From positions 3,623,501-3,687,500 of the forward strand of contig NZ_CP048411.1 of assembly GCF_019355055.1 (NCBI RefSeq): a stretch of DNA of 64,000 bases, in the 5' to 3' direction. The translations under genes were made by a program, and so were the position numbers. Source of the stretch: Pseudomonas sp. MTM4. GTDB lineage: Bacteria > Pseudomonadota > Gammaproteobacteria > Pseudomonadales > Pseudomonadaceae. Below are positions 17,317 to 19,290 of this stretch, piece after piece; position 1 is the first letter of the stretch, and every line of letters starts with the position of its first letter. The notes under the pieces are model-generated. The model saw only the letters and a program-made list of their open reading frames with translations, was not told the DNA's origin and ran no database searches.

Positions 17317-17679
17317 ATGCTGCTACGCGGGCTAACCTGGCTGGTGCTGTTCCAATTGCTCGGCACTGCACTCAACGTGCTGATGCTGCCGATATTGCCG
17401 GGGCCGATCATTGGTCTTCTGCTGCTGTTCGTGGCGCTGCTGATGCGCGGCCAGGCCAGCGAGTCGCTGCAATTGGCGGCCAGGAGTCTATTGCGTTATC
17501 TGCCGCTGCTGCTGGTCCCGCCAGCTGTGGGCGTGATGGCCTATACCGAGGCGATTCTCGAGGATTTCTGGGCCATCGTCGGGGTGCTGGTGGTTTCTCT
17601 GGTGGTGTCGCTGGTATTCACCGGCTGGTTGATGCAGGCACTGATTCGCCGCCAGCAGCGCAAGGCGGAGCGAGCATGA
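17317..17679 (+). CDS. CidA/LrgA-family holin-like protein
   Basis: A 120-residue inner-membrane protein with four hydrophobic segments (LVLFQLLGTALNVLML, GPIIGLLLLFVALLM, LLVPPAVGVMAYTEAIL, VLVVSLVVSLVFTGWLM). The PGPIIGLLLLF stretch is typical of the LrgA/CidA/YohJ family, which acts as a holin-like or small-molecule exporter pair with LrgB/CidB and affects autolysis and pyruvate or overflow metabolism. GGAGG lies 7 bases before the ATG. Its stop codon overlaps the ATG of the next gene (ATGA), so the pair is translationally coupled. The cid and lrg types cannot be told apart here. Confidence 0.9.
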   Translation: MLLRGLTWLVLFQLLGTALNVLMLPILPGPIIGLLLLFVALLMRGQASESLQLAARSLLRYLPLLLVPPAVGVMAYTEAILEDFWAIVGVLVVSLVVSLVFTGWLMQALIRRQQRKAERA

Positions 17680-18395
17680 TCGCGGTGCAATGGCAGGCGG
17701 CCTGGGAGGCGGTGATTCACCATCCGCTATTTGGCGTGGCGATTACCCTGGCGGCATTCCAGTTGGCGTTCGCCGCCTACGAAAAGACCCGTTGGGTGTT
17801 TCTGCAGCCGGTGCTGGTTTCGATGCTGGTGGTCGTCGGCATTCTGCTGGCCTGTGGTCTCAGCTATTACGAATACCGTGACAGTGCGCAGATGCTCACC
17901 GTGCTGCTCGGCCCGGCCACGGTGGCGCTGGCCGTGCCGCTGTATCTCAATCTGCGGCGGATTCGCGAGTTGTTCGGGCCGATCATGCTCACCCTGCTGT
18001 TGGCCGGTACCGGCGCTACGGCGCTGGGCATGGCGCTGGCCTGGGCATTCGGTGCCGATCAGATGATCCTGATGACGCTGGCGCCCAAGTCCGTGACCTC
18101 GCCCATTGCCATGCTGGTGGCCGAGCAGATCGGCGGCGTGGTGGCGCTGGCGGCGGTGTTCGTGATGATCACCGGTATCATCGGCGCGATCATCGGTCCG
18201 GAACTGTTGCGCCGATTCGGCGTTCAGCATCCAGCGGCCCGGGGCATGGCGCTGGGCCTGACCGCTCACGCGGTGGGCACCGCGCAAGCGCTGCAGGAAG
18301 GCGACGAGTGCGGTGCTTTCGCGGCGCTGGCCATGAGTTTGATGGGTGTCATGACGGCGGTGCTGCTGCCGCTGGCCGTGTTGCTGTTGTCATAG
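17676..18395 (+). CDS. LrgB/CidB-family membrane protein
   Basis: A 239-residue polytopic inner-membrane protein, partner of the preceding LrgA/CidA-like protein. Family stretches include LAVPLYLNLRRI, TLAPKSVTSPIAMLVAEQIGG and ARGMALGLTAHAVGTAQAL. About six to seven membrane segments are expected. The start ATG overlaps the upstream stop. The TAG stop at 18393-18395 uses the last TA before, and the first G of, the 293-bp structured element, so that insertion probably set or replaced the end of this reading frame. Confidence 0.9.
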   Translation: MIAVQWQAAWEAVIHHPLFGVAITLAAFQLAFAAYEKTRWVFLQPVLVSMLVVVGILLACGLSYYEYRDSAQMLTVLLGPATVALAVPLYLNLRRIRELFGPIMLTLLLAGTGATALGMALAWAFGADQMILMTLAPKSVTSPIAMLVAEQIGGVVALAAVFVMITGIIGAIIGPELLRRFGVQHPAARGMALGLTAHAVGTAQALQEGDECGAFAALAMSLMGVMTAVLLPLAVLLLS

Positions 18396-18687
18396 GGTCT
18401 GTTGACGTTTCGTCGCGAGCCGCGTTGCTGTGACAAATGTCGCCAGGCCGGGCGGCGTTCCGCAAGGCGCGGGACGCAGGTAATGGTCGCTCCCTTGCCA
18501 AGTCCCGCAACGCCGCATGGCGTCATTTGCCGCGCAACCTAGGCGGCCCCACCCGAAGGGGCGGGCCGGTTTTAGCGCGATACTGCGTTTCTCGTCGCTT
18601 ATTTGGAACTACCAAACTGCGCGACTCGCGCCTTGTCTCGCGCTAAAACCGGCTCCGCCGCGGCCGTGACGAAACGCCAACAGACCC
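18395..18687. mobile_element. 293-bp MITE-like element with inverted ends and cloverleaf-like internal hairpins
   Basis: Ends are inverted repeats: GGGTCTGTTGrCGTTTCGTC, one mismatch over 20 bases (18395-18414 and 18668-18687), extended with gaps by about 10 more. A TA dinucleotide flanks each end (18393-18394 and 18688-18689), as for elements that duplicate TA. Inside: hairpin A, arms 18424-18445 and 18518-18538; hairpin C, GCCCC 18546-18550 with GGGGC 18558-18562; hairpin B, perfect 16-bp arms GCCGGTTTTAGCGCGA (18565-18580) and 18638-18653, capped by TTTGG/CCAAA. No coding sequence is apparent. It fills nearly all the space between lrgB and the next gene's ribosome-binding site. Confidence 0.7.
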
Positions 18688-18699
18688 TAAGGAGTCCGA

Positions 18700-19290
18700 A
18701 TGAAGCTGCCGTTGTTTCCGCTCGATACCGTGTTGTTCCCCGGTTGCACCCTGGATTTGCAGATATTCGAGGCGCGCTATCTGGACATGGTCAGCAGTTG
18801 CCTGAAAGCGGGGCACGGCTTTGGTGTGGTCCGCATCATCGAGGGCAGCGAGGTGGGCTTGGCAGCGAGCGAATACGCACTGACCGGTTGCGAGGCGCTG
18901 ATCCGCGATTGGCAGCAGCGCCCCAATGGCTTGCTCGGCATCCGCGTTGAGGGTGGTCGTCGTTTCGATGTGCATTCGGCCGAGGTGCAGCGCGACCAGC
19001 TGACGGTCGCCGACATCAGCTGGCGCGACGAAATCGATGAGCGCCCCTTGGGCGACGAGCATGCCGATCTGGTGACGTTGCTCGAAGCCTTGGGCCAGCA
19101 TCCCGTGGTCGAGACGCTGGGCATGGGCGGAGCGGTGCAGGGGCAATGCTCGCTGGCGCATCAACTGGCCTATCTGTTGCCTTTTCAGCCGGAGCAGAAA
19201 ATCGAACTGCTCCAGCTGGACGATCCGCGGTTGCAACTACAGCGCATTCAGCGTTGGCTCGAACAATTGCAGGGTGATGCCGGCGAATAG
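18700..19290 (+). CDS. Lon-substrate-binding (LAN/PUA-like) domain protein
   Basis: A 196-residue cytoplasmic protein made of one Lon N-terminal domain without any ATPase or protease part. The domain signature is clear at the N-terminus: LPLFPLDTVLFPGCTLDLQIFEARYLDM. Stand-alone proteins of this kind are widespread in gammaproteobacteria; their role is not established, with substrate or peptide binding inferred from Lon. AAGGAG is 7 bases before the ATG and lies directly after the right end of the 293-bp element. It converges with the DedA-PAP2 gene, leaving only 10 bases between stop codons. Confidence 0.88.
   Translation: MKLPLFPLDTVLFPGCTLDLQIFEARYLDMVSSCLKAGHGFGVVRIIEGSEVGLAASEYALTGCEALIRDWQQRPNGLLGIRVEGGRRFDVHSAEVQRDQLTVADISWRDEIDERPLGDEHADLVTLLEALGQHPVVETLGMGGAVQGQCSLAHQLAYLLPFQPEQKIELLQLDDPRLQLQRIQRWLEQLQGDAGE

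Follow-up and report, generated by a model that had tools for sequence, protein, structure and literature searches.

MITEs are usually regarded as deletion remnants with an unimportant interior. Among small bacterial repeats, the Correia elements, RUP and ERIC are miniature palindromic intergenic elements which target TA, and the REP/REPIN sequences are numerous dispersed hairpins with conserved imperfections that are tied to RAYT (Y1) and lack TA-flanked inverted ends. The element treated here lies in a stretch of 64,000 nucleotides of Pseudomonas sp. MTM4 (NZ_CP048411.1, positions 3,623,501 to 3,687,500 of the forward strand), which was analysed as a whole and is called the window; coordinates below that bear no locus or genome label are those of the window. 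As the former families are generally described, it is set apart from Correia elements, RUP and ERIC by other ends and other hosts, and from REP/REPIN by its partner, a DDE transposase instead of RAYT (Y1). MITEPsy1 of Pseudomonas syringae is gene-less, 100 nt long, bears ends GGAAGGTCTGAAAAAGCC and is tied to the IS5-family element ISPsy2; its target is CTAG or YTAA, with a duplication of 4 nt reported, and, as far as the accessible part of that report goes, it shares with the window element a short, gene-less and IS5-linked make-up and differs from it in ends and length (PMC3189936). QMITE2, in the part of its description that was accessible, has a highly structured predicted transcript and is thus a structured MITE as well, but its direct repeats of 7–9 bp and its host are different (PMC10969869). 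An IS5-linked MITE as such is therefore a known kind, exemplified by MITEPsy1.

Direct reading of the sequence bears out the TA-flanked element of 293 bp with inverted ends (18395–18687) which a first-pass annotation, made by a model from the letters alone, had described; it is a longer variant of the commonest form of 264–265 bp. The inverted ends are 20 bp long: the left terminal inverted repeat, GGGTCTGTTGACGTTTCGTC (18395–18414, plus strand), matches the ends of ISPa67-type transposons, and the right one (18668–18687, minus strand; reverse complement GGGTCTGTTGGCGTTTCGTC) differs from it in one position. They are flanked by the left copy of the target TA (18393–18394), recognised from the sequence and from the single TA at empty sites, and by the right copy (18688–18689), which opens the TAAGGAG made up of the ancestral lrgB stop and the ribosome-binding site of the next gene. 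The internal arms are as previously described: arm A, a long imperfect stem (18424–18538) in which helices 3 and 5 of alignment A1 (58 copies, 82 pairs) covary; arm C, a short hairpin around CCCGAAGGG (18546–18562) whose stem pairs are nearly invariant in A1; and arm B, a long stem (18565–18653) with a strongly covarying base, where 14 of the 21 pairs of helix 9 have changed on both sides in A1. The tip of arm B (18579–18641, minus strand) is a variant, diverged in this copy, of a core hairpin discussed below; covariance model R2 gives it 80.9 bits, the same copy being part of the training set of R2. Folded as a single strand, the element pairs nearly throughout; as RNA, 18393–18689 reaches −179.9 kcal/mol against a mean of −121.75 in 200 shuffles (z −11.0), none of which folds as well as the native sequence. 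The absence of coding capacity likewise held, as no open reading frame of 90 or more amino acids lies inside the element, the overlapping ones being LrgB and frames that leave or enter the next gene. A role as terminator or promoter was rejected, since no such pattern was found at 18200–18900.

The element is inserted at the end of lrgB (17676–18395, plus strand; Pfam LrgB; stop TAG); downstream follows a gene with a LON substrate-binding domain (18700–19290, plus strand; Pfam). The stop TAG (18393–18395) consists of the TA of the target and the first G of the element, which specifies the claim that the element supplies the lrgB stop: it gives the G, the target gives the TA. A search for the site in 56 genomes of the genus yielded, among the matches listed, 30 loci, three of them filled (own genome, G075 and G024, the copy of the latter with an internal deletion). 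In 11 of the 27 loci lacking the element (again among the matches listed) the sequence reads TAAGGAG with a single TA exactly at the junction; at the remaining unfilled loci TAAGGAG is shifted once (L142), 14 other junctions mostly have TGA stops, and in L147 (G074) an insert of another kind lies close to this position. From the single TA at empty sites it follows that TA was duplicated, that the old TAA became TAG and that the downstream AAGGAG was left intact; the element is an insertion at the TA with which the lrgB stop begins, with duplication of this TA. The insert in L147 (about 1900–2070) is itself a miniature TA-flanked element near the same stop codon, with ends CAGGCCGTTGAAAAAC. Eight genomes show the same arrangement as at lrgB at another old site, which lies between proC and yggT (both assigned by Pfam). 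Over all, a called gene ends exactly at TA|G in 32 of 121 copies (rough gene calls, orthologues counted apart). Targeting of stop codons as a rule was considered and dropped because the frame control is weak (of 207 junctions, 46 fall in the stop frame and 37 and 11 in the two others), and the claim is restricted to lrgB and proC.

Two findings had been named beforehand as speaking against a mobile element, absence of other copies and an ancestral sequence; the empty sites dispose of the second, and the first does not apply either. BLAST finds 41 matches in the own genome, including the element itself and end-to-end matches; the pattern of the ends has 34 matches there versus none for the pattern read backwards, and among the loci examined at least 16 copies are bounded by both ends. 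This count and that of 121 distinct copies include only sequences with two recognisable ends 60–420 bp apart, partial copies being excluded. Matches occur in 34 of 37 genomes of the genus, and 21 genomes belonging to the other families of its order gave none; a family-wide sample, in which three candidates per genome were scored, has them in 138 of 248 genomes and in 13 of 19 genera. Among the distinct copies, 57 of 121 measure 264 or 265 bp and 92 of 121 have TA on both sides, the target settings of the 92 being CTAG (34), TTAG (11), CTAA (10) and TTAA (9). Many copies, inverted ends and TA duplication judged against empty sites make the element a non-autonomous DNA transposon, that is, the MITE which had been suspected. 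Some relatives hold near-identical copies at separate places (for example L127/L128 and L226/L227). Relatives of the element reside on one Pseudomonas aeruginosa plasmid and two Azotobacter plasmids, and a Halomonas plasmid carries one of full length (nhmmer, 205.5 bits); carriage by phages was rejected, no copy having been found in a phage collection. In G023, two MITE copies form a tandem pair with a common middle TA (L100:1003–1563). A Catenovulum plasmid contains an AT-rich, mostly diverged 311-bp element (L062:4003–4313) with similar ends and three-arm layout, including ACCCGAAGGG.

Because MITEs that duplicate TA are typically associated with IS630/Tc1-type transposases, mobilisation by an enzyme of that type had been proposed, and the TA duplication is the only observation in its favour. 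However, full-length transposons with these ends, the search for which had been recommended, do exist, and those found encode an IS5-family transposase (NF033580; Pfam DDE_Tnp_1 and DUF4096); moreover, the commonest target setting is CTAG. The IS630/Tc1 assignment is thus extremely improbable. The named relative is ISPa67, an IS5-family element of 855 bp known from a plasmid record, which has the same kind of ends as the MITE (GGGTCTGTTGCC[A/G]TTT) and the same TA flanks; it is unlike the MITE in length and in encoding a transposase, the common sequence being confined to the ends. On an Aeromonas plasmid, almost identical ends (GGGG in place of GGGT) enclose an IS5-family transposase scoring 267.6 bits with NF033580, and the genus search met, in G022, a stop-free transposase homologue with TA flanks and ends identical over 16 bp. 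Members of the IS427 group duplicate TA in YTAR/CTAG targets, a habit which the MITE follows, as seen from its TA flanks and the prevalence of CTAG. Judged by sequence comparison, the ends of the MITE are those of ISPa67-like IS5-family transposons, and an ISPa67-like transposase presumably moved it in trans.

Of 40 cross-genus loci examined for ends, one (L245) has no recognisable pair. MITE and transposon match over about 18–25 bp at the ends only, and for this reason the idea that the interior is a deletion product of the transposon was abandoned. In the own genome no intact matching transposase gene was found: the genus search met only a piece of 66 residues there, and no two matches of the end pattern are spaced as in a transposon. 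The copy in the window is therefore probably a relic that stays in place. The 66-residue piece (L072; G000:C1:2046952-2047149) is N-terminal and of ISPa67 type, lies in a frame of 163 codons with one terminal repeat, and is also present in nine other genomes; it may be a relic or a recruited DNA-binding domain. A further locus, L449 of G023, has a TA-flanked pair of ends, GGGAAGGTCTGAAAAAG, 1194 bp in extent around an IS5-type match; these ends resemble those of MITEPsy1.

That no intact parent transposase was found in the own genome would suit an ordinary MITE in decay, whose hairpins have no role. So would two of 14 orthologous sets (L192 and L058/L177, both with shortened copies), in which the element diverges more than its flanks. 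However, in 10 of the 14 sets the copies of the element resemble each other more closely than either flank does (L202 of the proC set is set apart here); the exceptions, L048, L192, L058/L177 and L044/L201, include shortened copies. Together with the narrow length class of 264 or 265 bp and the covariation in A1, this renders mere decay rather improbable. At the site between proC and yggT, orthologous copies are found in eight genomes (L040, L041, L042, L043, L053, L111, L112 and L202): between two genomes which differ at 27% of fourfold sites, one of 265 element positions differs, and over the 28 pairs from the eight genomes the element changes at 0.01–0.35 of the fourfold-site rate. In the limited collection at hand no full-length copy located elsewhere is 97% or more identical to this set, so that recent independent insertion between proC and yggT is not favoured, and the copy may have taken on a function at this site.

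The recommended covariation test gave a strong signal, which accompanies the folding energy reported above. In A1, 36 of the 82 pairs have changed on both sides, with 230 double-change cells compared to a mean of 48.4 after shuffling and at most 22 with slid partners. On a tree of 102 distinct copies of 262–270 bp, 38 of them from other genera (parsimony on one short sequence, recombination ignored), 168 branch changes strike both sides of a pair versus 10.3 with shuffled partners. The interior thus forms a predicted cloverleaf, in which copies belonging to several genera show strong compensatory change. With terminal branches ordered from short to long, double changes make up 0/6, 5/30, 29/80, 40/79 and 11/16 of the stem changes, and on internal branches 55/79; near-identical copies differ almost entirely by single changes, broken pairs increase with terminal branch length (rho 0.33), and paired columns change 0.48–0.75 times as often as unpaired ones. 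Resident copies seem to decay while foldable copies propagate, since single-sided breaks dominate the short terminal branches and compensated pairs the internal ones.

The same paired changes could stem from correction between the arms of a palindrome at the DNA level, by template switching in replication, with no selection for structure. The changes are in fact strand-neutral, and with 77 transversions and 63 transitions the double changes are not routed through GU; both ends of one copy change in concert; and neighbouring pairs change on one branch 11 times versus 4.9 in shuffles (the highest of 500 shuffles being 12), which mildly favours correction. Against it stand the shortest terminal branches, void of double changes that prevail on internal ones, although slow correction could still fit; the almost exclusively single differences of near-identical copies; and the reduced rate of paired columns, which correction alone does not predict. 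Nor does it explain the non-canonical loops shared by the core hairpins described below. Correction alone is therefore an unlikely source of the pattern, more probable nonetheless than mere decay.

The strand neutrality also bears on the earlier proposal of a structured non-coding RNA spread as a MITE, acting in cis or in trans and kept by selection on its transcript. Initially, 77 GT versus 34 AC cells were counted, from pairs chosen by plus-strand folding; this proved to be an effect of the choice, and RNA selection over the whole element was dropped. In pairs predicted from both strands, GU and AC cells number 34 and 28 (19 versus 13 sites, p 0.38), and single-sided departures from Watson–Crick pairing on the tree of the whole element lead to GU 54 times and to AC 51 times. 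Covariation of the whole element being strand-neutral, it is by itself no evidence of RNA.

A different picture emerged from the hairpin which the tip of arm B resembles. The insert of L147, met through its position at the lrgB site, has a central motif resembling this tip. A scan pattern drawn from both the L147-type insert and the ISPa67-type element, with AAATGA, AGCG.AGTTT and one CGAG fixed, found at least 119 stretches (none in the window); the 80 matches listed are mostly from Pseudomonas and Stutzerimonas, others from Methylophaga, Marinomonas, Halomonas, Rheinheimera, Chitinimonas and further genera. When 40 cores are read on the other strand, their consensus forms a hairpin of about 70 nt which has internal loops GA/GA and GGAG/TGA and is flanked by CAAGGC and AACGC. 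These 40 of the 54 cores listed constitute alignment A2, from which two ISPa67-like cores and twelve others, mostly with rearranged outer stems, were omitted by eye (near-duplicates and L295 having been dropped earlier). The stems covary (102 double cells versus 23); invariance in A2 at the GGAG/TGA loop and one CGAG is partly imposed, since the scan pattern fixed part of these letters, which largely persist in 36 cores found by the model.

Some of the cores reside in small TA-flanked elements. Inverted ends with up to three mismatches plus TA on both sides were found at 22 of 91 core loci and at none of 232 random positions; allowing four mismatches, the number is 25, of which 16 are 140–143 bp long. 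By eye there are about ten kinds of ends; those of the L328 type, GGCTCTGTACGAAAAG, are one or two bases off the ends GGTTCTGTACGAAAAG of a second IS5-family transposon of the genus, TA-flanked and 911–914 bp long. Model R1, built without ISPa67-type copies, finds no core in eight transposon loci (seven distinct places, two end types). In a class-wide sample the core model matches 78 of 185 genomes and 73 of 176 genera, and the own genome has 14 core matches at E 0.001 or better outside ISPa67-type copies. One core match there directly adjoins a copy of the ISPa67-type MITE (G000:C1:3118523-3118803; L393, L009), as if one element had landed beside or inside the other.

Arm-B tips from 52 copies read CAAGGC-AC-GAGGAGCGAAGTTTGG-loop-CCAAAT(A/G)AGCGACGAGTAACGC and correspond to the core minus the outer stem; the scan pattern contained neither CAAGGC nor AACGC, nor the second CGAG, nor the GC next to AAATGA. 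R1 reaches seven of 29 scanned ISPa67-type loci at E <0.01 (best 2.3e-6), with no match to the copy of the window. Conversely, R2, built from arm-B tips, ranks L147 first in 92 kb, weakly (E 0.045), and at 22 of 36 core loci its hit, in most cases a weak one, has the correct position and strand. The link is partly circular in that the scan pattern was drawn from both element types, L147 being the independent case. A common origin of the arm-B tip and the core hairpin of the 140-bp elements is quite probable, and is put no higher since some of the loop letters conserved in A2 were dictated by the pattern.

The RNA proposal draws on this core. In elements of the 140-bp type, one strand of the core gives the better fold in 71 of 76 cases, the GA/GA and GGAG/TGA loops (partly pattern-imposed) are largely kept in the 36 model-found cores, and in the outer stems GU outnumbers AC 35 to 12 (cells that are not independent, one of the two alignments being model-fitted; first 36 of 38 matches, 13 of 21 pairs), by which a strand-specific single-stranded form is favoured; the slow change of the element between proC and yggT fits as well. 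Opposed to it are the equal GU and AC changes over the whole element and the absence both of an Rfam match and of a promoter or terminator pattern around the window's copy, as well as of a clear orientation bias to genes. Among 71 cores with gene calls on both sides (nine without calls and two inside a call were omitted), 19 are sense, 24 antisense, 20 convergent and 8 divergent, and of the ISPa67-type copies 19 are sense and 31 antisense, orthologues counted apart. So even an orientation tells against action in cis within messages; the remaining candidates are DNA in single-stranded form and an RNA transcribed on its own. Of the RNA proposal, then, the preference of the core for one strand stands, and the support sought in whole-element covariation does not; as an account of the element it is doubtful.

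As a whole, the observations are best explained, with a probability of about 0.7, by a MITE with ISPa67-type ends, mobilised in trans, with a folded interior that carries the core as a passenger. Insertion at the TA of the lrgB stop kept both a stop codon, TAG, and the AAGGAG of the next gene, and an ISPa67-like transposase would mobilise the MITE in trans. The core may be a passenger module which aids propagation of the element whatever its ends, its folded single strand (a transcript, or DNA laid bare while the element replicates or transposes) being recognised by a factor of the host or of the element; copies that no longer fold would stay put and decay. That the core promotes spread in this way, recognised as a folded single strand, is the most likely of its possible roles, at roughly even odds. 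Somewhat less probable, and tentative, is the wider reading that a gammaproteobacterial mobile hairpin of about 70 nt, with tandem G-A pairs and a single-stranded function, has repeatedly been packaged between different IS5-family ends, the cloverleaf in the window being an elaborated member.

The first-pass annotation could name no described family into which the element fits. This is true in so far as neither the element nor the core matches Rfam, two weak matches and the tRNA/intron lying elsewhere, and no description of the element, its ends or its core was found in the literature searched, a scope with ISfinder and most subscription journals outside it; it is not true of the transposon that supplies the ends, ISPa67 being known. 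Within that same scope of Rfam and searched papers, a covarying cloverleaf and a core common to differently ended MITEs were not met either. A covariance model is now supplied for this repeat. In these elements the interior is the conserved part and covaries across a bacterial family; across a class, elements with unrelated ends contain a hairpin that resembles part of this interior. Together this makes the determinants of MITE success directly testable. If the mobile-module reading is true, the ends would be interchangeable and the hairpin would be the true unit of success.
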